Shown: positions 5,819 to 20,711 of the stretch, in pieces
Layout of the letters: each line of letters begins with the position of its first letter
How positions within the stretch are numbered: the first letter of the stretch is position 1
Virus record (IMG/VR): IMGVR_UViG_3300031111_000040
Coordinates: 1 to 20,711 of that record
Length of the DNA stretch: 20,711 nucleotides
DNA from: a virus
Direction: 5' to 3' (one strand)
Position numbers and translations under genes: made by a program
The notes under the pieces: model-generated
Seen by the model: the letters and a program-made list of their open reading frames with translations, nothing else
Databases searched by the model: none
Told to the model about the DNA's origin: nothing

Positions 5819-5970
5819 TCAAAGTTCTCAGGGATCCCCCGGGTGCTCACAGTATTACCGAGCAGACCCAGGCCATGCATGAGGCCGCGGACATCCTGGA
5901 ACGATGGTCGCAGATCTATAAGGAGAGACTAGATGTCAAAGAAACTCAGAGAATTAACCCTTATGGATAA
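5800..5970 (+). CDS. 56-aa helical early protein
   Basis: The frame ATG 5800 to TAA 5968 reads MELKEIIKVLRDPPGAHSIT, then EQTQAMHEAADILERWSQIYKERL, clearly helical and in phage-like high-GC codons. It overlaps the genes on both sides. Codon 9 is GTT (5824-5826), the second candidate G/TT entry point for the cassette array, since joining it to 7241 keeps the frame. Confidence 0.5.
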   Translation: MELKEIIKVLRDPPGAHSITEQTQAMHEAADILERWSQIYKERLDVKETQRINPYG

Positions 5971-6091
5971 AGGCTTTACAAGGAAGAATACCGAAACTGA
6001 CCTCCGTAAACCCTTCCAATTAGAGTACGATGTTGACGGTGAAACTTATTCCGGCGGCACCATCGATGTGTGCTACCTCAAAAAAATATAA
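5933..6091 (+). CDS. 52-aa protein ending at attC1
   Basis: ATG at 5933 after AAGGAGA (spacing about 7). Basic N-terminus, then a short beta-rich domain (FQLEYDVDGETYSGGTIDVCYL). The TAA stop (6089-6091) lies inside the R'' box of attC1, the arrangement expected for the last gene of an integron cassette. Codons are more AT-rich than in the upstream genes. Function unknown; the left boundary of its cassette is not clear. Confidence 0.55.
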   Translation: MSKKLRELTLMDKGFTRKNTETDLRKPFQLEYDVDGETYSGGTIDVCYLKKI

Positions 6092-6153
6092 CAAATCGTT
6101 AGAGCTAACCCCGTGCAAACAGCCGCACGGGGTAGCTCAACTCCACGTTGGCT
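6086..6153 (+). other. attC1 recombination site
   Basis: R'' ATATAAC (6086-6092), spacer AAATC, L'' 6098-6116, loop AAACAGCC (6117-6124), L' 6125-6141, spacer TCCAC, R' GTTGGCT (6147-6153). The L arms pair over 17 bp, with A6101 and A6108 left unpaired on the 5' arm, a textbook attC pattern. Confidence 0.92.
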
Positions 6154-6168
6154 TTTAAGGGAGAAAAT

Positions 6169-6345
6169 ATGGATACAGAAAGTTTAATTAGAGACGCTAC
6201 GCCTGAAGCACTTATTCGTATATTAAATGGCATCCCCTTCAATCACAAGCTGTCCGCACTTGAAGAATTTGGGATCAGAGTTACGGTTAAAAAATTAAAG
6301 GAACTCGCCAACAGGAAAATTCACCCGACTGAAAAGCTCGGGTGA
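6169..6345 (+). CDS. Cassette A protein (58 aa), unknown
   Basis: ATG at 6169 after AGGGAG (6158-6163). Acidic-to-neutral helical protein: LIRDATPEALIRILNGIPF, then EEFGIRVTVKKLKELANRK. The stop lies inside attC2, with the last residues encoded by the attC stem. AT-rich codons differ from the phage genes around the array. No family recognised; a cassette-borne accessory function such as toxin-antitoxin or anti-defence is conceivable but unsupported. Confidence 0.65.
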   Translation: MDTESLIRDATPEALIRILNGIPFNHKLSALEEFGIRVTVKKLKELANRKIHPTEKLG

Positions 6346-6359
6346 TCTTCATGTTATCT
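6306..6359 (+). other. attC2 recombination site
   Basis: R'' CGCCAAC (6306-6312), spacer AGGAA, L'' AATTCACCCGA with T6321 extrahelical, loop 6329-6337, L' TCGGGTGATC, spacer TTCAT, R' GTTATCT (6353-6359). R'' pairs in 6 of 7 positions with the R' at the start of the same cassette (GTTGGCT, 6147-6153). Confidence 0.88.
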
Positions 6360-6370
6360 ATGGAGGAAAT

Positions 6371-6571
6371 ATGTCAAGCGTTGGAACCGAGATAGTAAAA
6401 GAACAGGCAAGGGCAAGAGAGTTAAAATCGATGTATGAGTCCATTGGTCCCGCTGGAAACTTCGGGAAGTTGATGATCGAACAGGCTTTACGTCGAGCAG
6501 ACGAAGCACTTTCAAGCGGGGATGCGATTAAAATTTTGCAGAGTTACGAGGAACTTAAAAATCTGGAATAG
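6371..6571 (+). CDS. Cassette B protein (66 aa), helical, unknown
   Basis: ATG 6371 after TGGAGG. The chain is almost all helix (IVKEQARARELKSMYESIGPAGNFGKLMIEQALRRADEAL, then IKILQSYEELKNLE). The TAG stop overlaps the R'' box of attC3. The ordered heptad-like pattern suggests a small folded helical bundle rather than chance coding. Not recognised as a resistance gene; function unknown. Confidence 0.7.
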   Translation: MSSVGTEIVKEQARARELKSMYESIGPAGNFGKLMIEQALRRADEALSSGDAIKILQSYEELKNLE

Positions 6572-6623
6572 ATAACCTGTCAGTTCAGTTGACAGCAAGC
6601 TGCAACTGACTTCATCGTTAAAG
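6570..6623 (+). other. attC3 recombination site
   Basis: R'' AGATAAC (6570-6576), spacer CTGTC, L'' AGTTCAGTTG with one extrahelical T, loop 6592-6602, L' CAACTGACT, spacer TCATC, R' GTTAAAG (6617-6623). R'' is the perfect complement (7/7) of R' at the cassette start (GTTATCT, 6353-6359). Confidence 0.92.
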
Positions 6624-6630
6624 GTTTAGT

Positions 6631-6882
6631 ATGAAAATACCAAGATGGTATCATCGACAAGAAATTAAAGAATGGTTTCAACGGAGAGGAATAAAACATT
6701 CACCACAAGAAATCTTGATGTTTACTGAGGGGCTTCAAAAGGCATTTGAAAAAGGTTGGCAGAAAGGGCAACAGAATCTCCAACCAAAAGATTCAGCGGG
6801 TATTTGCACCTGTAAAAACATTGAGCATGTCCAGGGGTGTAAGTATTGGGGACTGCCTAATAACTGTTATTATAACCGCTGA
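6631..6882 (+). CDS. Cassette C protein (83 aa), Cys-rich C-terminus
   Basis: The ATG is 7 nt after the attC3 R' box; the local AAAGG (6620-6624) of the core site can act as ribosome site. The N-terminal part is basic and helical (YHRQEIKEWFQRRGIKHSPQEILMFTEGLQKAFEKGWQKGQQ); the C-terminal third has C-T-C-K, C-K-Y-W and a final NNCYYNR. That third is encoded inside the unusually long attC4, so part of the protein is made from recombination-site DNA. Function unknown. Confidence 0.65.
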   Translation: MKIPRWYHRQEIKEWFQRRGIKHSPQEILMFTEGLQKAFEKGWQKGQQNLQPKDSAGICTCKNIEHVQGCKYWGLPNNCYYNR

Positions 6883-6896
6883 TCTTCACGTTGTGC
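6778..6896 (+). other. attC4 recombination site (long, contains the gene's 3' end)
   Basis: R'' CTCCAAC (6778-6784), spacer CAAAA, L'' GATTCAGCGG (6790-6799, one T extrahelical), L' CCGCTGATC (6876-6884), spacer TTCAC, R' GTTGTGC (6890-6896). The 9-bp L stem is perfect; the apical part is 76 nt and holds the end of the cassette C gene. R'' matches the cassette's R' (GTTAAAG) in 5 of 7 positions. Confidence 0.82.
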
Positions 6897-7033
6897 GCCC
6901 TGGCATGTCATGTTAGCGGCACATGGAAACCCGTTAGGGCCGATGCTTAGATGTCGATACGGTATCAGGGCGCACAACAAATCATTTGAGTTGGATGGCC
7001 GGGAAAAGCCTCCGGCTACCACTCAATTCAACA
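6891..7033 (+). other. Cassette D: short cassette without a clear gene
   Basis: Only about 80 nt lie between R'4 and attC5. No ORF of convincing quality is present; a 32-codon frame from 6943 runs through attC5 and is probably by-product. The ends form a 13-bp perfect inverted repeat (6890-6902 with 6966-6978), extending the R'/R'' complementarity. The middle contains GTTAGCG and GTTAGGG, which resemble core sites. It could encode a small RNA, a promoter, or be a remnant; I see no clear promoter. Confidence 0.65.
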
Positions 7034-7039
7034 TTATCT
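6972..7039 (+). other. attC5 recombination site with altered crossover triplet
   Basis: R'' GCACAAC (6972-6978), spacer AAATC, L'' starting ATTTGAG (one T extrahelical), inner stem CCGG/CCGG with loop GAAAAGCCT, L' ending CTCAAT, spacer TCAAC, R' ATTATCT (7033-7039). The expected GTT of R' is ATT here. R'' is the perfect 7/7 complement of this cassette's start (GTTGTGC). Confidence 0.87.
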
Positions 7040-7051
7040 AAAGGAGAATTA

Positions 7052-7234
7052 ATGGAACAGTTGACACTTTTTGATTTGTCGCAATACAGAGAAAAATGGA
7101 GTCCATTATTTGAGCCTGGGGTAATGGATAAATTGGCAGATATTACTGCTTTAAATTGGAGAAATGAACTAAAACGTAGAAACAGTTTAGATAACCAGAC
7201 ACTTAACAACGACACGCCTTCGGTGGCGTGTTAG
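7052..7234 (+). CDS. Cassette E protein (60 aa), unknown
   Basis: ATG at 7052 preceded by AAGGAG (7041-7046). It reads MEQLTLFDLSQYREKWSPLF then EPGVMDKLADITALNWRNELKRR, helical and AT-rich in codon use. The stop TAG lies inside attC6. An in-frame start further up (6986) would run through attC5 and has no ribosome site. No family recognised. Confidence 0.65.
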   Translation: MEQLTLFDLSQYREKWSPLFEPGVMDKLADITALNWRNELKRRNSLDNQTLNNDTPSVAC

Positions 7235-7247
7235 TTCAGCGTTATCG
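7189..7247 (+). other. attC6 recombination site, right end of array
   Basis: R'' AGATAAC (7189-7195), spacer CAGAC, L'' 7201-7218, loop TTCG region, L' ending TTAGT, spacer TCAGC, R' GTTATCG (7241-7247). ACACGCC pairs with GGCGTGT; AC(T)TA pairs with TAGT across a small internal bulge. R'' is a 7/7 complement of the TTATCT at the cassette start. R' runs straight into phage-like coding sequence. Confidence 0.9.
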
Positions 7248-7273
7248 AGACGGACGAACTCATCCCCGAGTCG

Positions 7274-7528
7274 ATGTCGCAGATGATTCAAGCCCGAAAA
7301 GCGATCGAGCTTTACCAGGAGACTAAAGCAATGGAGAACTACGATCAATGGAAAACGGCGTCACCGTTCGATGACGATCCGGACTTCGCCGACCTGGCCA
7401 TAAAGATGGCCGAGGCCATCGAGAAGAAACGAACGCGGCAGGATCAGGCCGTGTGGTTTGCCCATCATAAGGATGATATTTCGCAGTTGTTGAGGCACCT
7501 CGCGGACCATATCATCGAAAACACATAA
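7274..7528 (+). CDS. Helical phage protein, probably 5'-truncated by the cassette array
   Basis: 84 aa from the ATG at 7274, but no ribosome site precedes it. The frame stays open upstream to the attC6 crossover (GTT ATC GAG ACG GAC GAA CTC..., 7241 on), reading VIETDELIPES before the first Met, in phage-like GC-rich codons. Residues such as QARKAIELYQETKAMENYDQ and DDDPDFADLAIKMAEAIEKKR are helical and acidic. The simplest reading is that integration at G/TT separated this part from its start. It may still be made from an internal start. Function unknown. Confidence 0.55.
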   Translation: MSQMIQARKAIELYQETKAMENYDQWKTASPFDDDPDFADLAIKMAEAIEKKRTRQDQAVWFAHHKDDISQLLRHLADHIIENT

Positions 7529-7901: not shown

Positions 7902-10511
7902 ATGAAATTCCAGGAGGTCTACAACCTCTTTTTCACGCCCGGGGAAGTAGTCGAAATCCGGGCCTACGGACTCTCGAAGACCAACAAGGCATGGGAAGGA
8001 TGGGCCGGCGGGACCGGGATCGTATATGGATACTTTGACAACCCGGAATCATTCGCAGAGGCCGCCACGGCCCTGGAGAAGGCAAAGGCCCCGGGCATCT
8101 ACTTCACTTTAAACCCGTGCCTCCCCGATCTCCTGGCCCGGGCGGCGAATCGTCTCAAGGCCGCCGGCGCAAAGACCGTCACCACTTCAGACAAGGAAAT
8201 CGCGTTTATTCGATGGTTACCCATCGATCTGGATCCAAAACGGCCGTCCGGGATATCGTCCACCGACGATGAACTCAAGAAAGCAATCACACTCCGGAAT
8301 AAAATCTATAAATACCTCGTGAACGAACTGAAGTGGCCGCCCGGGATCCCCGCGGTGTCCGGGAACGGTGCTCACTTGGTTTTCAAGCTTGACCCGGCTA
8401 TAGAAATAAAGAACCGCGACAATGTCAGTGACGACCCGGGACCGCAGGAAATTAAGCAATGTCTCCTCGCCCTGGCCCATAAGTTCGGGAGCAAGGAAGT
8501 AGACGTCGATATATCCGTCTTCAACCCCGCCCGGATCTGGAAACTGTATGGAACATCGGCCCGGAAGGGTGATCACACGGATCTGCGGCCGCACCGGAAG
8601 AGTTACATCGAAAGGAAATTTCTGAAGACCACACCGGATCATAGTCAGGTGATCGGTGCCGATGAAAAATTGAGAAAAGCACTGGCCGTCATGGCACCGA
8701 AAGATGCCGAGACAGAAGACGAATACCAAAGGTCAGACAAGAGCCAAAAGTCGCAACCTCGTGCGTCTCAGGAGACCGATCTGGGCGAATTTGACGTAGA
8801 GAAGTATTTAACGGCCCATGGGATCACTTTTAACGTAAAACACCGCGGCGATCGAACCCTTTACCGGCTCGATCATTGCTTGTTTGATCCTTCTCACGGC
8901 AAAAATGACGCATATATTCAGCGGACTCCAGGGAGTCCCTTGATCTATCACTGCTCTCACCAATCATGCAACCACACATGGAAAGAGGCCCGGTACTGGA
9001 TCTCTAAGGACCAAAGCCTGGCCCCGTACATGAGCGGATATGATCCTCATTTTAAGAAAGCAAAGTCAGAGAAACGATCGGAGTCGATAACCACCCAGGA
9101 GATGGGATCCGGGATTCTGGATAAGATAATCATCGATTACGAACCGCCGGCCGGCGTGCTCGATTCCCCGGCCGTTCCCCCTCCGAATAAAATTGACCCG
9201 CGCGAATTCTTTCGGAAAAACATGCAGGGCAAAGTGGCCTTTATCCCCCGCCGCATGGCCTTCTATTATGCGGCCTATCTCCAGAATATCATCCACACGA
9301 GTGATGTCTTTTGGCATTACAGTGGAGGCGTCTGGAAACGATTCAGCCACTTCAATCTAATGAAGATCGCGGTCAATGCCCTGGACGATGCGATCCAACC
9401 CACCTACCTCCGCGGCACCATCGATCTCCTCCGAGGCCTGGTCAATAAAGAGCACGAGGAATGGCCGGCCTGGAACAACCAGATCAATTGCCTTAACGGC
9501 ATGGTAGACATCGAGACGGGGAAACTGAAGCCGCATGATCCCAAGTATCTGTCGGTGTCGCAATTGCCATGTAAATACGGATGGGAACATTATGAGGAAG
9601 AGGTGACGCCCTGGTTGGACTTCCTCGAGGCGATATGTCCGGGAGAGGAAGATAAGAAATCCATCATTCAGCAATTCTTTGGCTATTGCCTACTGCAGGA
9701 CTGCCGATATGAAAAGGCTTTATTCTTAAAGGGTGAAGGCGGCAACGGCAAAGGAACTTTGGTCCATATGCTCCGGGAAATGCTTGGGAATGACAACTGT
9801 TCAAGCCTGACCATGGAGCACATCGCGGATCCCAGGTTTAGCCTGTATTTCCTGCAGGGCAAACTATTGAATGAGATCACCGAGCTTAGTCACCGGAAAG
9901 GGATCGAGACGGAACTCTTTAAGAAGATAGTCTCCGGAGAAAAACTCACTGTGGAACGTAAATACGGCGACAAGTACGAATATGAACCCTATGTAAAATT
10001 CGTCATCAGCATGAACAACTTGCCTATTATTCCGGACACCTCTTACGGCTTTAAGCGGCGACTCCTGGTGGTCAACCTAAACCAGAAGTTCGAGCAGGGT
10101 GTCAACGCGGATCCCCTTCTCAAGCGCAAACTTGTCCGGTGTAGGGATGCTGTGTTCATGTGGTCCCTGATGGGCCTGGAAAAGATCATGAGTCAAAATA
10201 AATTCGTCGTCGGGGGTAAAGTCCGAGAAGAGACTGAAGTGTTTTTTGAGGCACTGGATCCGGCCACGGAGTTTTTCCAGGAAACCCTCGAGGCCGTCCC
10301 ACCGGACAGAAAATCCGCCCTCCAGGTCCAGGAAGTGTACGAAAAATATGTTAGATGGTGTAAGAGCGTCGGGCACAACCCTTTGAACCGCCGGAACTTT
10401 AATTCGAGGCTTGAGAGGTATTTCGCGGCCGAAGGCGTTAAGAAGGGACCATTCGGTGATACAAGACGAATACACTGGATTAACCTGGAATACAAACTGG
10501 AGGCAATGTAA
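7902..10511 (+). CDS. Phage replication primase-helicase (AEP-like primase + D5/SF3 helicase)
   Basis: 869 aa from the ATG at 7902, with GGAGG at 7891-7895; an in-frame ATG at 7884 is less likely. Residues about 1-250 look like an archaeo-eukaryotic-type primase: acidic DLDP (about 109-112), a SGNGAH segment (about 153-158), and VDISVFNPARIWKLYGT (about 201-217). A possible zinc site follows (C near 326, HCSHQSC near 350). Residues about 440-740 are a D5-type superfamily 3 helicase: Walker A GEGGNGKGT (about 611-619), Walker B LLNEITEL (about 655-662), motif C KFVISMNN (about 699-706), and KRRLLVV as arginine-finger region. A winged-helix-like C-terminus ends the protein. Such proteins prime and unwind phage DNA at the origin; the structured regions on either side are origin candidates. 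Confidence 0.9.
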   Translation: MKFQEVYNLFFTPGEVVEIRAYGLSKTNKAWEGWAGGTGIVYGYFDNPESFAEAATALEKAKAPGIYFTLNPCLPDLLARAANRLKAAGAKTVTTSDKEIAFIRWLPIDLDPKRPSGISSTDDELKKAITLRNKIYKYLVNELKWPPGIPAVSGNGAHLVFKLDPAIEIKNRDNVSDDPGPQEIKQCLLALAHKFGSKEVDVDISVFNPARIWKLYGTSARKGDHTDLRPHRKSYIERKFLKTTPDHSQVIGADEKLRKALAVMAPKDAETEDEYQRSDKSQKSQPRASQETDLGEFDVEKYLTAHGITFNVKHRGDRTLYRLDHCLFDPSHGKNDAYIQRTPGSPLIYHCSHQSCNHTWKEARYWISKDQSLAPYMSGYDPHFKKAKSEKRSESITTQEMGSGILDKIIIDYEPPAGVLDSPAVPPPNKIDPREFFRKNMQGKVAFIPRRMAFYYAAYLQNIIHTSDVFWHYSGGVWKRFSHFNLMKIAVNALDDAIQPTYLRGTIDLLRGLVNKEHEEWPAWNNQINCLNGMVDIETGKLKPHDPKYLSVSQLPCKYGWEHYEEEVTPWLDFLEAICPGEEDKKSIIQQFFGYCLLQDCRYEKALFLKGEGGNGKGTLVHMLREMLGNDNCSSLTMEHIADPRFSLYFLQGKLLNEITELSHRKGIETELFKKIVSGEKLTVERKYGDKYEYEPYVKFVISMNNLPIIPDTSYGFKRRLLVVNLNQKFEQGVNADPLLKRKLVRCRDAVFMWSLMGLEKIMSQNKFVVGGKVREETEVFFEALDPATEFFQETLEAVPPDRKSALQVQEVYEKYVRWCKSVGHNPLNRRNFNSRLERYFAAEGVKKGPFGDTRRIHWINLEYKLEAM

Positions 10512-12454: not shown

Positions 12455-12973
12455 ATGCCAGGGAAATCCAAGATAGAAAAATACGGTTTCGAGGCCAGAG
12501 TCGAGGCACTCGCCTTTAACCAGGGGAAGACGGTCGAAGAGATCGCCGAGATCCTCACGGCCGCCCTCAAGGGCCAGGACGTCATCACTAAATCCTCCGT
12601 GGCCAGATATCTCCAACCCCGCCGGGACCAACTCCGCGGCGAGATCCAGGAACGTCTCAACCAACATGCCAAGGAAAAGCTTGAGACGGATCTCGAGTGC
12701 ATCGAGGAGATCCAACTCTTTTTGATGAATGAAATGCGTAACGAATACCGCGAGGACATGATCGACGGCAAGAAGGTTGTCTCCGGTCATTCCGTCAAGG
12801 ATAGATCCGAATATGCCATTAAAGCGGCCCGGGTCATCGATATGAAACTGGCCAGGTCCCTCGGGGATCCGCACGGTGGCGGATCCGGCCTGGACCCCGT
12901 AGACCTGGACAAGTTCCGGTCGGAGGCCGACGAACTCAAGGCCGAGGCCTTAAAAGAGGAAAGTATTCACTGA
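12455..12973 (+). CDS. terS: Terminase small subunit
   Basis: 172 aa. N-terminal residues about 8-55 form an HTH-type DNA-recognition domain (ARVEALAFNQGKTVEEIAEIL, then KSSVARYLQPRRDQL); the long central helices (ERLNQHAKEKLETDLECIEEIQLFLMNEM) fit the TerS oligomerisation region, and the Gly-rich, acidic tail (PHGGGSGLDPVDLDKF) fits contact with TerL. TerS binds the packaging site and regulates the motor. The start has no strong ribosome site. The stop overlaps the TerL start by one base (TGATG), the usual TerS-TerL coupling. Confidence 0.75.
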   Translation: MPGKSKIEKYGFEARVEALAFNQGKTVEEIAEILTAALKGQDVITKSSVARYLQPRRDQLRGEIQERLNQHAKEKLETDLECIEEIQLFLMNEMRNEYREDMIDGKKVVSGHSVKDRSEYAIKAARVIDMKLARSLGDPHGGGSGLDPVDLDKFRSEADELKAEALKEESIH

Positions 12974-14487
12974 TGGTTGAATTCACTCCGATCAAAGGTG
13001 TCGTTTATAAGTACGATTACCCGGCAATCTTCCGGAGTATCGCGGCCGGCGAAATCGAGGCCGTGCCAACCTATCGTGAGCTTTGCAGAAACGATCTCTT
13101 CTTCCTTTTGTATTTCGGCCTCGAACGCACCGATGTGAATGATCCATTTATTATCGAATGTATCCGCGAGGTCGAACGGGATCATGTCGATACTGTCGAT
13201 CTCTGGGCCAGGGAGCATTATAAGAGCACGATCATCACCTATGCCCTGCCGATCCAGGAGATCATAAACAACCCCGAGGAACGCATCGGGATCTTCTCTC
13301 ATACCCGGCCTATTGCCAAAGGGTTTCTCAGGCAAATCAAGCAGACCCTGGAGAACAAAGAGGTCCCGGTCGTCAAGTGGTTCCCGGATATCTTCTGGCG
13401 GACCCCCAGGACCCAGGCCCCGAAATGGTCTGAGGACGACGGCATCACCGTGCGTCGCAAGAGCAACAGCAAGGAGGCCTCGATCGAGGCCTGGGGCATG
13501 GTGGACGGGCAACCGACGTCTAAACATTTCACCGTCAGAATCTACGATGACGTCGTCACTAAAGAATCAGTCACCACCCCGGATCAGATCCAGAAGGTGC
13601 TCGATGCATACGAGACATCCGAATCACTGGGAACCGACGGCGGCACGGCCAGGATCGCCGGCACCCATTATCATTTCGCGGATCTCTACGCCCATTTACG
13701 AAAGCAACGAATCTATAAGGTCCGCATTAAACCCGCCACGCACGACGGCACCCCGCAGGGCCGGCCGGTACTACTAAGCCAGAAACGCTTGAACGAACTC
13801 CGGCAGAAACAAGGGCCTTACATATTCGCATGTCAACAGTTGCTCAACCCGGTTGCCAGTGAAGAGCAGAAGTTTAAGCCGGAATGGGTCCGGTACTACG
13901 ATATCCTGCCGGCGATCCGGAATAAATATCTCCTGGGCGATCCCGCCAATGAAAAGCGCAAGCAGAATGATTACACGACCCTTGGCGTTATCAGCGTGGA
14001 CCCGTACGGCAACTGGTTCTTAGAGGACGCGGTCCGTCAGAAGTTATCCCTCGGCGAACGATGGGAGGCCCTCCGGAACATGTGGCTTGACAATCAACCT
14101 ATCCAGGCCGTGGGTTATGAGAAATACGGGAAGGACGCGGACATCAACTATTTCGAGGAGAAACAGAAAGACGAGGGGACGTATTTCATGATCACACCCC
14201 TGGGCGGCAATCAGTTGAGTAAGGGCGACCGGATCCTCCGCCTGGTGCCGCGGTTCAAGAACGGCACATTTTACCTTCCCAGGCGTCTCATCCGCGACGG
14301 CGAGGACCTGGTCCAGGTCTTCATTGATGAAGAATACGTTTTTTTCCCGTTCGTGATCCATGATGACCTTTTGGACATGATGTCCAGGATGGAAGACATC
14401 GGGCCGGTGAGGCCGGCGGACAGCCCTGCGGGTCCAAGGAAGGCTAAGACCACCGACGTCATGGCCAGGTTGCGGGGGCACGCATAA
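12973..14487 (+). CDS. terL: Terminase large subunit (packaging ATPase and nuclease)
   Basis: 504 aa. The ATPase part shows a Walker-A-like AREHYKST (79-86), Walker B VRIYDDVV (catalytic acidic pair near 192-193) and a coupling motif RIAGTHYH (about 228-235). The RNase H-like nuclease starts at YLLGDPANEKRKQNDYTTLG (first acidic residue D323) and ends with a HDDLLDMMSR segment that supplies late metal ligands. Length and order are normal for TerL. It cuts concatemers and pumps DNA into the prohead through the portal encoded downstream. Confidence 0.9.
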   Translation: MVEFTPIKGVVYKYDYPAIFRSIAAGEIEAVPTYRELCRNDLFFLLYFGLERTDVNDPFIIECIREVERDHVDTVDLWAREHYKSTIITYALPIQEIINNPEERIGIFSHTRPIAKGFLRQIKQTLENKEVPVVKWFPDIFWRTPRTQAPKWSEDDGITVRRKSNSKEASIEAWGMVDGQPTSKHFTVRIYDDVVTKESVTTPDQIQKVLDAYETSESLGTDGGTARIAGTHYHFADLYAHLRKQRIYKVRIKPATHDGTPQGRPVLLSQKRLNELRQKQGPYIFACQQLLNPVASEEQKFKPEWVRYYDILPAIRNKYLLGDPANEKRKQNDYTTLGVISVDPYGNWFLEDAVRQKLSLGERWEALRNMWLDNQPIQAVGYEKYGKDADINYFEEKQKDEGTYFMITPLGGNQLSKGDRILRLVPRFKNGTFYLPRRLIRDGEDLVQVFIDEEYVFFPFVIHDDLLDMMSRMEDIGPVRPADSPAGPRKAKTTDVMARLRGHA

Positions 14488-14842: not shown

Positions 14843-15115
14843 ATGGCACCAGTAGCCGGCGTTGTTGGAATGATTATCCAGGCCGTTGCCGCGGCCGGAT
14901 CCGCGTATATGAGTTATCGTGCAAGTAGAAAAAGTGGTGGATCGATTATCGGCCCGTCTGACAGTCTGCCGACGGAAGATGACACGAATGCAAAAAAGGC
15001 GGAGGCCCGGCGTCGTGCCCTGTCTAAGTTCGGACAGGAAAAGATGAAACTGACCCCCGCCCTGGGGCTTGATGAAGACGCACCCGTGGCAAAGAAAAAG
15101 CTATTAGGTGAATGA
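14843..15115 (+). CDS. Small membrane-associated phage protein upstream of portal
   Basis: 90 aa from the ATG at 14843 after AGGGAGA. Residues about 3-22 (PVAGVVGMIIQAVAAAGSAYM) are hydrophobic. The rest is charged (KKAEARRRALSKFGQEKMKLTPALGLDEDAPVAKKKLLGE); the end motif, a T-P/S-x-L-G-L run followed by a kk-LLG tail, recurs in podovirus proteins at this position. It may be an internal virion or ejection component; role inferred. Confidence 0.55.
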   Translation: MAPVAGVVGMIIQAVAAAGSAYMSYRASRKSGGSIIGPSDSLPTEDDTNAKKAEARRRALSKFGQEKMKLTPALGLDEDAPVAKKKLLGE

Positions 15116-15116
15116 T

Positions 15117-16781
15117 ATGGCTGAAACAGAGGCTAAAAAATACATCCGGTACATGCAACACCTGGAACAGAACCGCTTGTACTGGGATAATCGCAATATC
15201 AACATCATGAAGTTCGAGATCCCCGGCCGCGGGAAGTACCCGTCCGTGAGTCCAGATCCTGATCATGGGGAAGACCGGTGGGACGATATCATGAACGAGA
15301 GCACGGCCCTGGCGGCCAGGACCACCGTCTCCGGAATGATATGGGGTCTGTCCTCTCCCGCCTCCGAATGGTTCCGGATCGGCATCACGGACAAGGACCT
15401 CCAGAAATACGGCCCCGTCAAACAGCATCTGAATACAATCCAGAGAGGATTGAACAGCATTTTCCATCGGAGTAATTTCTACAGTGCCCTGTATCCCTTG
15501 TACGAGGAGGAGATCGGTTTCGGCGGCGCGGTTCAACTCGCGTTAAGTGACGAAGACATTCTCGCATATTACCACATGGTCCCCGCGGGGCAATACGTCC
15601 TCGCAAACGACTCCCGCGGCGAACCCGACACCATGGGCCGGCGTTATTTTCGAACGGCACGGCAGATCGTGGAAACATTCGGGTTTAATAACGTGTCCAT
15701 GAAGATCAAAAAGGCTTATTCCAAAAATCCCTACGAGTGGTTTTCAATCATACACTTCATCGAGCGGAACCCGGACTATGACGCCCGGCACATGGACAAG
15801 GGGCACATGAAATACCGGTCCGTATATATCGATCCGTCGTCCGAAGGCAGGATCCTGCGAAAGGCCGGATTTAAGACGAAACCGTTTTTCACTCCCAGGT
15901 TTTCGAGGCTTGCCGAGGAGACGTACGGCCGCGGGATCGGCGGCATGATGCTCGGATCCGCCATGAGTCTCCAGGAGATGGAGAAGACAAGTCTGAACGC
16001 CCTGTACAAAACCGTGGACCCGCCCGTTGTCGGGCCGCCGGAATTTTCGGAAAACATAGATGTATCCGCAGGAGGTTATAACGTGGCCCCTGCGGCCGCA
16101 CGAATGGACACGATCAAGGCACTGTACCAGATCGACTACAATATCCGCGGCGTCGAAGAAAAAATCCGCCAGGTGGAGCAACGGATATCCAGGGGTTATT
16201 TCAATGACCTGTTCCTCTTCATTCTCAACCACCCCAACGCCACGGCCACGGAAATCCTGGAACGAAAGTCGGAAAAGGTCATCCTGCTCGGCCCGGTGGT
16301 GACCGCTCAACAGGACGAATATTTTGAGCCGGCCATCATCAGGACATACGAACTGGCCCTGGACGAAAATTATTTCCCGGAACCACCCCGCGAATTGAGC
16401 GCGGCGACCCTCGAGATAGAATTTGTGTCGCAGTTGGCCATTGCCCAGAAGATCGCGTGTACCGAAAGCGTCTATGGGTACATGCAGTTTGTGGGCGCGG
16501 CCGCGGGAATCGATCAGAATGCCGCCGATAAGTTTGACGCGGACCAGGCTATTGACGAGATCGCCGACCTCCTGGGCGTGCCCCCGAAAATCAACCGGGG
16601 TGAGGATGAAGTGGCACCCATCAGGGCGGCAAAGGCCCAGGCCGCGGCCCAACAGGAGCAACAGGCCGGCATTTTGACGGCCATAGGTGCCGCCAAGGAG
16701 ATGAGTAAGACGGATACGTCCGGAAAGAACGCGTTAACCGATGTGACAGGCGCACAGGAGGAACCGATCGTTGAAGAATAG
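15117..16781 (+). CDS. Portal (head-tail connector) protein, T7-like/Bbp family
   Basis: 554 aa from the ATG at 15117, 6 nt after AGGTGA. The N-terminus (YIRYMQHLEQNRLYWDNRNI) and segments such as TALAARTTVSGMIWGLSSPASEWFRI, a VPAGQYVLANDSRGEPDTMGRRY region and LNALYKTVDPPVV are those of the Head-tail connector family found in podoviruses. The long helix EEKIRQVEQRIS and the acidic/Ala-rich C-terminal tail fit a dodecameric portal. It forms the vertex through which TerL loads DNA. It lacks a stop gap from the next gene (11-nt overlap). Confidence 0.85.
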   Translation: MAETEAKKYIRYMQHLEQNRLYWDNRNINIMKFEIPGRGKYPSVSPDPDHGEDRWDDIMNESTALAARTTVSGMIWGLSSPASEWFRIGITDKDLQKYGPVKQHLNTIQRGLNSIFHRSNFYSALYPLYEEEIGFGGAVQLALSDEDILAYYHMVPAGQYVLANDSRGEPDTMGRRYFRTARQIVETFGFNNVSMKIKKAYSKNPYEWFSIIHFIERNPDYDARHMDKGHMKYRSVYIDPSSEGRILRKAGFKTKPFFTPRFSRLAEETYGRGIGGMMLGSAMSLQEMEKTSLNALYKTVDPPVVGPPEFSENIDVSAGGYNVAPAAARMDTIKALYQIDYNIRGVEEKIRQVEQRISRGYFNDLFLFILNHPNATATEILERKSEKVILLGPVVTAQQDEYFEPAIIRTYELALDENYFPEPPRELSAATLEIEFVSQLAIAQKIACTESVYGYMQFVGAAAGIDQNAADKFDADQAIDEIADLLGVPPKINRGEDEVAPIRAAKAQAAAQQEQQAGILTAIGAAKEMSKTDTSGKNALTDVTGAQEEPIVEE

Positions 16782-17926: not shown

Positions 17927-18826
17927 ATGCCTACACTTAAAGAACTCAGCATCATGTATGCGAAAAAACAACCCAAGATGGTTGACAGCATCACCGAAGA
18001 GGCCCCGATCCTCGATATTATCCCGTTCGCCGAGGCATCCCACGGCCTGTGGAACATGTACGAGGAAGTCGAGTCCGTGACAGGCGCGGCCTTCGGGGAT
18101 ATGGACGCGGCACTCACCACTCTGAATGTCACCAGTGAACTCAAGAAGTTCGATCTGAGTGTCATGGGCGGCGAGATGGAGTGCGGCGAGGATAAGGCGA
18201 AAATGTACGGCGGCAAGGAGAAATATTTCGCGGACCGGATGGGACCCGTGCTCAAGAAATCCGGCATGACGAGCGAGGTTGCCATCCTGTATGACTGCCT
18301 TCGCCAGTATTGTATCGACAATTCACTGCTCATCGACGCGGCCGGGACCGAGGACACATGCTACACCATCCTGGCCGTCCGTTTCGAGGAGGGCGTGACA
18401 TACGGGTATTACTCGCCCGAGGGGTTCAAGCAGGGCGCGATGCTCCACACCCTGCCGATCAACGGCGGCAACGTGTACAAAAACTCGAGCGGCATCCTGG
18501 TCTACGGTATTCGTCTCAAGGGGTATTTCGGGATCCAGATCGCGAGTACATACACCGTTCACGCCATCGTCAATATCTATTCGGGCAAGATCCCGACCGA
18601 GGCGCAACTCGATGACCTGATCGCCAATGTGCGCGGGACACCGGCAAACACCTTCCTGTTCATGCATCCTAAGTGCAAAAACCTGATCAACGGGTACAAG
18701 GAGGAAAAGGTGTTTATGAGCGTGAGGGATAAGGATCTAAATACGTTGTACGACGCGTATCAGTCCATCCCCATCGTGCCGAGCTACAATTTCCTCAACG
18801 GCACCGAGGAGGCGATTTCGGTTTAA
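17927..18826 (+). CDS. Major capsid protein (HK97-fold, Bbp17-like)
   Basis: 299 aa; strong ribosome site 6-10 nt upstream (AAAGGAGAATAG). The N-terminal arm (PTLKELSIMYAKKQPKMVDSITEEAPILDIIPF) and the late strand-rich part (VYGIRLKGYFGIQIASTYTVHAIVNIY) fit the short podovirus type of HK97-fold coat. A P-domain-like helix lies near 220-245. It has no long delta domain, so a separate scaffold is needed, and one is encoded immediately before it. Forms the icosahedral shell with the cement protein encoded next. Confidence 0.75.
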   Translation: MPTLKELSIMYAKKQPKMVDSITEEAPILDIIPFAEASHGLWNMYEEVESVTGAAFGDMDAALTTLNVTSELKKFDLSVMGGEMECGEDKAKMYGGKEKYFADRMGPVLKKSGMTSEVAILYDCLRQYCIDNSLLIDAAGTEDTCYTILAVRFEEGVTYGYYSPEGFKQGAMLHTLPINGGNVYKNSSGILVYGIRLKGYFGIQIASTYTVHAIVNIYSGKIPTEAQLDDLIANVRGTPANTFLFMHPKCKNLINGYKEEKVFMSVRDKDLNTLYDAYQSIPIVPSYNFLNGTEEAISV

Positions 18827-18895: not shown

Positions 18896-19336
18896 ATGGG
18901 AGAAGCATACGACCACATTCAAAGGGCATATGGCGAATACTATGCCTCGGCCCAAACCATCCCGGCGAATGCCACGGAAGTCGGAGATGAGGGTGCCCAA
19001 CAGCATTCCGGGGCCATGGGCGGCATCGAGATCATCACCCAGGTGAATACCGCGGTGAGTTTCCACTATATCACGGCCCTGCTCGAGGTGTGGATCCTCC
19101 ACGCCACCACGAATGCCGCGGCCTATTTCCAGACACTGTGCCGGGCGTGCAGTTTCCGGGCATGGCCGACCAAACTGGGCGCGGCGGCCCCGACAGGGCC
19201 TTACGCCGCCGGCACCGTGTTCGGCCGGTATGTCCTGCCATCCGATGCGTACAGATACACCAAGGCGGTTCTCAAGACCGACGATGATTCCGCATCCGGT
19301 GCGCTCGATATTTTTCCGTCTCTGTTGCCAAGGTAA
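18896..19336 (+). CDS. Bbp16-like capsid cement (decoration) protein
   Basis: 146 aa from the ATG at 18896, behind AAAGGAGAT; an in-frame TTG at 18878 is not used in my call. Almost all beta-strand: FHYITALLEVWILHATTNAAAYF, TVFGRYVLPSDAYRYTKAVLKTDD, GALDIFPSLLPR. Layout and length fit the Bbp16-type capsid cement family, which stabilises the shell after expansion. Its place just after the major capsid gene supports this. Confidence 0.6.
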   Translation: MGEAYDHIQRAYGEYYASAQTIPANATEVGDEGAQQHSGAMGGIEIITQVNTAVSFHYITALLEVWILHATTNAAAYFQTLCRACSFRAWPTKLGAAAPTGPYAAGTVFGRYVLPSDAYRYTKAVLKTDDDSASGALDIFPSLLPR

Positions 19337-19356
19337 CCAGTATCACAACCTTCTCC

Positions 19357-19380
19357 GGTCCCCCGGTAAAACGGGGGACC
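19357..19380 (+). terminator. Terminator-like hairpin after the cement gene
   Basis: GGTCCCCCG (19357-19365) pairs with CGGGGGACC (19372-19380), loop GTAAAA. The stem is strong but the following DNA (TTAACAGC) is not a T run, so it may act as partial terminator or RNA 3' stabiliser for the abundant capsid message. Confidence 0.6.
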
Positions 19381-19403
19381 TTAACAGCAAGGAGTCGGAG
19401 AGT

Positions 19404-20711
19404 GTGGAAATCTATTACATCATTTTTTGCGCGGTTATCCTCCCCCTGGTTAATCTCTACCAACCGCACGAGGCCAGACATTACCTGTTCGCACTGGGAT
19501 CTGCAACGGTCCTATTATATGTCGTGTCAACCAGGCTTTTTTATGGTGATGGATCATCCGTGCTCCACATGCCCGATCTTTGGGTTGCCGGATTCGGAGT
19601 TTGCACAGTTATGTCCTGTGCATGGGCCACGAATGCGCGAGAGGCACTGTCAGACGGAGTCGTCTGGGCCGGATGCCTCGTGCTGTATTTTGCGGCCGGC
19701 CGCGTCAATACGGACGGCATGATGTTGGCCCTCTTTGCGCCGGCCGTGCTCATGACGCCCATGGCATTGTATCAGGCATATTCCGAAAGACGTCACGGCC
19801 ATGTCATCGAGATCGATGGGCTTCAACTGGTGACCATGCCGTCCGGCATGTTCGGCAATACGAATTTTTTCGGGGTCTACCTGGCCGTGGTCTTTTTTGC
19901 CGGCCTATGGTTGTCGGAGAATGTCAGTCCATGGTTTTATGCGCCCTTGTCCCTGGTCGCAATATGCCTGGTCCTGACAAAATGCCGGGCGGCCTGGGTC
20001 GGGTGCTCCGGCGGCCTGGCCTTGTTCTGTTACTTGAACGGGTTCCTCTTTGAAATGGCAATACTGCTGATTGCCGGAGGGGTTGCCTTTATGACTAAAC
20101 TGCTCAAGGCAAAGGGATCGCCGCTCGAAAGCAGTGGCACGGCCCGGATCTCATTTTTTTTGAATGCGCTGAAACTGATCCGGCAACGCCCATTGTTCGG
20201 GTGGGGGTTGCGGTCCTTTCGCGTTGAGCAGTATTACGCCCACCGGGACCTCGCGGCCGAGTCCGAAAGTCTGGGTAAGAAATCCTCCGCACCCACCGAC
20301 CGGATTCATAACGATTACCTCGAAATAGGAGTGGAAACCGGGCTTGCCGGCCTGATCCTGTTCGGCGTGTTCCTGGTGCATCTCCCCTGGTCTGCGGATC
20401 CCTGCCTTTCCGGCGGCCTGGCATCGATGCTTGTATCCGCGATGTTCTTCTTCCCGTTCTATACCATGCCCACGGCCGTCGCCTTTTGGTGCTTTGCCGG
20501 GGCCGCCGCATCCCGGACCCCTGCGGAAATCACATTGGATGTCCCGGTCCTGATATATGCCGTCCTCGCCGCGTGTTTTCTGGGTGTCGTCTGGCAGGTG
20601 TCACTGTTCAAGCTGATCGCCCTGATGATCTGGCACCACCGCGCAAACAGGGCGCAAAACGTGCCCGGGCTTTTGCATGTCGTCATGAAATGCTTGAAGT
20701 ACGATCCGTAT
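19404..20711 (+). CDS. O-antigen ligase/polymerase-like membrane protein (Wzy/WaaL type), 3'-partial
   Basis: Frame open from GTG 19404, 9 nt after AAGGAG (19389-19394), to the window end: 436 codons, no stop. It has about ten or more hydrophobic segments. Family motifs seen: FGNTNFFGVYLA (about 150-161), LTKCRAAWVG (191-200), RPLFGWGLRSF (262-272), and HNDYLEIGVETGLAGLIL (302-319), the His-Asn and E-x-G-x-x-G pattern of the periplasmic loop of Wzy_C proteins. These enzymes join or polymerise O-antigen at the inner membrane. Lying directly after the capsid genes, it may change the surface of the infected or lysogenic host. The gene could also be host-derived cargo. Confidence 0.75.
   Translation, partial: MEIYYIIFCAVILPLVNLYQPHEARHYLFALGSATVLLYVVSTRLFYGDGSSVLHMPDLWVAGFGVCTVMSCAWATNAREALSDGVVWAGCLVLYFAAGRVNTDGMMLALFAPAVLMTPMALYQAYSERRHGHVIEIDGLQLVTMPSGMFGNTNFFGVYLAVVFFAGLWLSENVSPWFYAPLSLVAICLVLTKCRAAWVGCSGGLALFCYLNGFLFEMAILLIAGGVAFMTKLLKAKGSPLESSGTARISFFLNALKLIRQRPLFGWGLRSFRVEQYYAHRDLAAESESLGKKSSAPTDRIHNDYLEIGVETGLAGLILFGVFLVHLPWSADPCLSGGLASMLVSAMFFFPFYTMPTAVAFWCFAGAAASRTPAEITLDVPVLIYAVLAACFLGVVWQVSLFKLIALMIWHHRANRAQNVPGLLHVVMKCLKYDPY

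Follow-up and report, generated by a model that had tools for sequence, protein, structure and literature searches.

How did a tandem series of integron-type attC sites come to lie among the early genes of a phage, and do these sites delimit gene cassettes supplied by a bacterial integron? Integrons are gene-collecting devices of bacteria, and phage-defence genes have lately come to be counted among the genes they carry. The locus lies in a 20,711-base viral contig from IMG/VR, and we refer to this whole stretch of analysed DNA as the window. It has no end repeats and is a linear fragment of unknown completeness. A preliminary description, made from sequence alone, had proposed a CALIN-like array without integrase in the phage early region, and this proposal held on the evidence of the attC sites and the lack of an integron integrase (IntI) in the record. 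We consider it very likely that the array is a genuine CALIN (an integrase-free cassette cluster) within the early operon that was loaded by a host IntI, with the loading itself being an inference.

The window phage is a BPP-1/epsilon15-like podovirus, with the following genes to the right of the array.

7902 to 10511, plus strand: primase/D5-like helicase adjoining the array (phrog_864, E 3e-82; D5_N and DUF5906 domains)
12973 to 14487, plus strand: terminase large subunit, TerL (phrog_38, E 3e-55; 69% to L196/L278)
15108 to 16781, plus strand: portal (head-tail adaptor) of BPP-1/epsilon15 type (phrog_332, E 6e-117; ~33% identity to BPP-1)
17927 to 18826, plus strand: probable major capsid protein (placed after a scaffold/protease-like ORF; similarity to prophage ORFs)

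Both flanks are phage DNA, with homologs of early genes on the left and the primase, TerL, portal, and capsid genes on the right. This result upholds the earlier assignment of small early genes to the left flank and a primase-helicase to the right. The probable capsid protein shares 51-57% identity with ORFs found in Desulfovibrio prophages and in other viral contigs, which merely hints that the host might be a sulfate reducer. The phage had also been called temperate. We regard this lifestyle as likely only, and it remains unproven for a 20.7-kb fragment that contains no integrase gene; a related contig (L275, described below) carries a phage-type tyrosine recombinase. Pfam gave no match for a minus-strand ORF that resembles a repressor, and viral scans with single proteins (the primase, the portal, and one cassette ORF) found no close relatives. 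Directly after the capsid genes, positions 19320-20711 encode an O-antigen ligase-like protein (Wzy_C, PF04932) with a 32% homolog in L198 (8581-9591). By analogy with epsilon15, for which lysogenic conversion is known, this gene may possibly serve such a conversion.

Upstream of the primase, six attC sites lie on the plus strand at 6086-7247, a span of 1162 nt within the phage early region.

6086 to 6153, plus strand: attC1 (grammar score 11; R1 28.0 bits; R3 34.7 bits, E 2.6e-7; fold z = -5.0)
6306 to 6359, plus strand: attC2 (grammar score 9.4; R3 24.2 bits, E 2.3e-4; fold z = -4.2)
6570 to 6623, plus strand: attC3 (grammar score 9.0; R1 14.7 bits; R3 21.2 bits)
6778 to 6896, plus strand: attC4 (grammar score 11.0; no covariance-model match; L arms the same as those of the L275 attC at 6486-6602)
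6972 to 7039, plus strand: attC5 (R1 20.2 bits; R3 23.1 bits, E 4.6e-4)
7189 to 7247, plus strand: attC6, the right end of the array (R1 21.0 bits; R3 24.6 bits, E 1.7e-4)

Every site has 5-nt spacers on both arms and an extra base past the third L-stem pair on the 5' arm of the top strand. The full set of attC criteria (AAC...GTT outer boxes, spacers, pairing L arms, and an extrahelical base) is satisfied by all six, with the one exception that attC5 has ATT for GTT at 7033, and its crossover base is thus altered (G lost). The preliminary description had reported these six tandem sites with the same boxes, spacers, and extra bases, and all were confirmed where it had placed them apart from this triplet. 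In attC1, the 5' arm has two extra bases (A, A) and the R'' box includes the stop codon of the ORF at 5933-6091. At the second position past the extra base, 12 of 13 phage sites have an A-T pair, a feature that known attC sites also show.

The grammar scores come from a detector built on the published attC layout (AAC, 5 bases, 3 pairs, 1 extra base, further pairs, a loop, the pairing arm, 5 bases, and GTT), which was applied both to the window and to ~3.6 Mb of DNA from other phages. This fixed-grammar detector recovers all six reported sites on the plus strand. Five GTT-bounded matches scoring at least 7 fall within the 1162 nt, whereas the rate in 7.3 million strand-bases from other phages predicts 0.042 (Poisson p ~1e-9).

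The covariance models were home-made, and default-filter scores were used because searching with filters off gave truncated, lower-scoring matches. Model R1 was trained on 24 sites from class 1 integrons, a Vibrio anguillarum phage integron, a Shewanella prophage, and phage TJE1. Although restricted to these known integrons and phages, it matched four of the sites when the 3 kb surrounding the array was searched (28.0, 21.0, 20.2, and 14.7 bits). Model R3, trained on 12 of the R1 sites plus seven of another phage and on no window sequence, matched five of the six sites (E 2.6e-7 to 1.6e-3), with no further match across the 20.7 kb at an E threshold of 10. The covariance check suggested beforehand therefore yielded five same-strand sites rather than six. 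The remaining site, attC4, was missed by every covariance model and was recognised by the grammar and by its arms; it is 119 nt long, and its long terminal region is the 3' end of the ORF at 6631-6882. An Rfam search gave no matches. When the bottom strands were folded alone, z-scores ranged from -1.3 to -5.0, with attC4, which has a long terminal part, folding only weakly. Across a set of 24 sites (12 of them from the window and L275), 94% of L-stem cells are paired, and there are 68 two-sided changes versus 21 in shuffles.

An alternative explanation is that these are ordinary early phage genes separated by hairpins, either terminator-like or regulatory, with only the appearance of attC. In its favour, the bottom strands fold stably and the operon consists of small genes anyway. 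However, the array contains a single terminator-like site, on the minus strand, and hairpins of this kind do not predict AAC/GTT boxes, fixed 5-nt spacers, or an extra base. The ends of the cassettes bear on the same alternative. In the circular form of a cassette, the start (TTRRRY) faces the R'' of its own attC, and these ends are expected to match. When cassettes lie in a linear array, the matching ends are one gene apart, and each R'' adjoins the start of the next cassette. Five bounded cassettes are present.

6148 to 6353, plus strand: cassette 1 (ORF 6169-6345, 58 aa, with a GGGAG ribosome-binding site; start codon 19 nt from the boundary; own R'' GCCAAC pairs with start GTTGGC)
6354 to 6617, plus strand: cassette 2 (ORF 6371-6571, 66 aa; start codon 15 nt from the boundary; own R'' AGATAAC pairs with start GTTATCT)
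6618 to 6890, plus strand: cassette 3 (ORF 6631-6882, 83 aa; own R'' CTCCAAC pairs with start GTTAAAG through two bottom-strand G-T wobbles)
6891 to 7033, plus strand: cassette 4 (no convincing gene; start and own R'' complementary over 13 nt, GTTGTGCGCCCTG / CAGGGCGCACAAC)
7034 to 7241, plus strand: cassette 5 (ORF 7052-7234, 60 aa, with a GGAG site upstream of its ATG; own R'' AGATAAC pairs with start TTATCT)

Beyond AAC/GTT, the own ends of the five cassettes form 3, 6, 4, 7, and 7 pairs, and neighbouring ends paired in situ form 0, 1, 1, 1, 2, and 3. The true assignment of starts to R'' boxes is the best of 120 permutations, and the corresponding ranks for controls are 2/120 for a class 1 integron and 1/5040 for the V. 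anguillarum phage integron. Both ends of every window cassette match, as they would in a former circle; this best-ranked pairing is like that of known integrons, and the units therefore once existed as circles. A search over 4.0 Mb for two neighbouring sites with own-cassette pairing returned 28 pairs, 26 of which belong to known integrons, the host integron of the metagenome-assembled genome (MAG) containing L115 (see below), TJE1, L115, L275, or the window. Hairpins do not predict ends that match across the gene but not across the hairpin, and no such hairpins are present in other relatives. Own-cassette pairing and the covariance models together rule out ordinary hairpins or terminators, and we regard this alternative as all but excluded. 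A chance origin of the six sites is excluded by the grammar statistics, the R3 and R1 matches, and own-cassette pairing.

The earlier count of five cassettes, four with a small same-strand ORF, also held, with 6891-7033 being the one that lacks a convincing gene. The start codons of the four ORFs lie 11-19 nt past the boundary. None of the cassette ORFs had a convincing match in Pfam, PHROGs, NCBIfam, or PADLOC, and BLAST searches of the region and the cassette proteins against phages and plasmids gave no match. Among 574 genomes related to Desulfovibrio or Geobacteraceae MAGs, no convincing relative of the cassette proteins was found; the sole weak match (E 5e-4, to a 1188-aa frame) was taken as chance. 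As a separate observation, one cassette in each of two phages has an ORF that runs through its attC (window 6631-6882 and L275 6327-6593). The terminal region of the attC encodes a Cys-rich C-terminus in both cases, and the two attC sites have common arms, GATTCAGCG/CGCTGATC.

The limits of the array are less clear than its interior, and two ORFs adjoin them.

5933 to 6091, plus strand: ORF ending in attC1 (52 aa), whose upstream sequence lacks a convincing matching cassette start
7244 to 7528, plus strand: right-flank ORF with no stop in its frame as far back as the attC6 crossover

The left boundary is unresolved, since nothing upstream of attC1 convincingly matches as a cassette start. The ORF at 5933-6091 is either a cassette gene that lost its left boundary or a phage gene beside the array. 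Likewise, the right-flank ORF either starts at a codon at 7274 or represents a gene cut short by the array. Partial decay or freezing of the array is possible, given the attC5 crossover change and the left boundary at attC1.

With six same-strand attC sites within 1162 nt and no match to the integron integrase family (TIGR02249) anywhere in the window record, which is a fragment, the CALIN criteria are satisfied. The criterion for a complete integron fails, as there is no intI in the record and no recognisable attI in the window. A second alternative is that an integron integrase gene of the phage lies beyond the 20.7-kb fragment and that the phage thus carries a complete integron. The record is indeed a linear fragment of unknown completeness, but IntI is missing both from it and from the 26-kb L275 record, where the only match is the phage-type tyrosine recombinase, below the cut-off. 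We consider this explanation very unlikely.

Relatives were gathered by scans with terminase and primase alignments. The contig L275 (also listed as L171; IMGVR_UViG_3300009311_000021) encodes a primase 42% identical to that of the window from the same start codon, and seven plus-strand attC sites lie upstream of it. The distance from the last attC to the primase is 554 nt in L275 and 659 nt in the window. Own-cassette pairing ranks 1/120 in L275 with six sites and 2/720 with seven. Model R1 gave no match on L275, and a further model (R2, trained partly on window and L275 sites) found the seventh L275 site, which was absent from its training set. No cassette ORF of the window is matched in L275, and one L275 cassette ORF corresponds to phrog_2821, a phage family of unknown function (E 6.5e-10). 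The array is absent from six other relatives (L274 and L276-L280). Arrays are therefore gained and lost within this group, and two of them precede the primase. The CALIN reading would have been refuted by a lack of attC-model hits or by related phages carrying the same sequence as ordinary conserved genes, and neither outcome occurred. No empty site for the window array could be defined among the relatives because the early genes of L278 and the others differ too much.

Two further attC carriers, L160 and L115, were found by the models among prophage loci with the same portal family. The minus strand of L160, a prophage in a Geobacteraceae MAG, bears two complete cassettes. One, which spans 259 bp with exact GTT-to-GTT limits, is 98% identical end to end to a host-integron cassette located ~0.2 kb from IntI on a different contig of the same MAG. 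This IntI is genuine (342 bits versus a cut-off of 265), and the orthologous prophage L167 lacks the insert and so provides an empty site. The two copies of the 259-bp cassette differ, which argues against an assembly duplicate. Nevertheless, this host-to-phage evidence rests on MAG binning, which can err. L115 has attC sites in the MAG of a gammaproteobacterial symbiont with three IntI genes, and a cassette there carries a phage-type adenine methyltransferase. L160 and L115 are distant from the window phage, and therefore the process is shown for the phage family and not for the window itself. The earlier proposal that a host integrase loaded the array in trans was thus only partly upheld: such loading is likely in general, being strongly indicated by the L160/L188/L167 comparison, and for the window it is an inference without recombination data.

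A third alternative is that the array is a passive relic, a piece of a host integron acquired by illegitimate or homologous recombination rather than cassette by cassette and useless to the phage. A left boundary without a matching cassette start and the altered attC5 crossover base are consistent with this view, and Qi et al. 2023 suggest off-target recombination for phage CALINs (PMC9892861). Against it, the window ORFs are intact with ribosome-binding sites near each boundary, an entirely different array occupies this position in L275, and the L160 insert ends exactly at GTT and has an orthologous empty site. We judge the relic explanation unlikely.

Under the preferred reading of a host-loaded CALIN, phage DNA would enter a cell that has an integron, and the host IntI would act on folded attC bottom strands. 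Circular cassettes would be inserted by IntI first at a GTT-like secondary site in the phage and later at resident attC sites. Their small ORFs with ribosome-binding sites would then be read along with the early operon, and the same reaction could shed cassettes or return them to the host integron. Related phages would represent other stages, with L275 having a different array in the same place and the L160/L188/L167 set having a host-common cassette and an empty orthologous site. The recombination step is inferred from anatomy and from L160, with no assay data. Several points weigh against the main reading: the record has no IntI, no convincing relatives of the window cassette proteins were found in phages, plasmids, or 574 related genomes, attC1 lacks a matching upstream start, attC5 has an altered crossover base, and the direct evidence comes from a distant relative and depends on MAG binning.

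A bolder reading is that the phage lineage maintains a site dedicated to exchange immediately before the primase and swaps early genes through host integrons. We hold this to be tentative and lean slightly against it; the swapped genes might include counter-defence functions, such as methyltransferases. If correct, phage and host integron would have one cassette pool in common. If phages load host-integron cassettes at a favoured early-gene site, integrons would also feed phage evolution, and phages would become carriers of cassettes between hosts. The L160/L188/L167 trio offers a natural example, with a common cassette and an empty site.

CALINs had been described from phages before, and the window adds one more case. 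Qi et al. 2023 reported 17 of them and showed IntI1 to be active on several attC sites from phages (PMC9892861). Among these, the CALIN of Tetrasphaera phage TJE1 resembles the window array in having same-strand attC sites and small ORFs without an integrase in a phage; its sites pass the same detector and were part of the model training set. The window differs from those CALINs in its phage lineage (BPP-1/epsilon15-like portal) and in having six sites in 1.16 kb. The main text of that study presents IntI1 assays and array maps, not comparisons of locus, pairing, or host cassettes (PMC9892861). Our analysis adds own-cassette pairing, a relative that bears a different array at this locus, and, also in a relative, a cassette in common with the host. 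No later studies of phage cassette arrays were found in the literature searched, and as far as that literature shows, the repeated position, the own-cassette test, and the host-common cassette appear to be additions.

Chromosomal CALINs and sedentary integrons share with the window the attC structure and one small ORF with its start codon just past the boundary, whereas the window array lies in a phage early operon with no intI or recognisable attI. The V. anguillarum phage Va_90-11-286_p16 (MK672802) likewise carries cassettes with own-cassette pairing. However, it has a complete integron with intI, and the window has an array inside the early operon and no intI. The cassettes of that phage are a subset of the host chromosomal integron, taken at excision (Qi et al., PMC9892861). 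Cassettes are also reported to insert at scattered genomic sites termed attG (Loot et al. 2024, cited in PMC11023631). This is similar to L160, where cassettes occur at GTT sites away from any attI, but in the phage cases the target is a phage, and the target site of the window array is unresolved.

Some minor features of the distant prophages were also recorded. The cassettes at L160 6763-7526 and L115 6358-6895 are antisense to phage transcription, and the ORFs inside them have the same direction as the phage genes; in L115 such an ORF encodes a Dam-type methyltransferase. Between the two L160 cassettes is a 254-bp segment (7021-7273) with no visible attC that is also missing from L167, and it is perhaps a cassette that lost its attC. 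Finally, contigs 11, 14, and 65 of G581, a MAG of a Ctena orbiculata symbiont, encode three separate integron integrases that score above the family cut-off.
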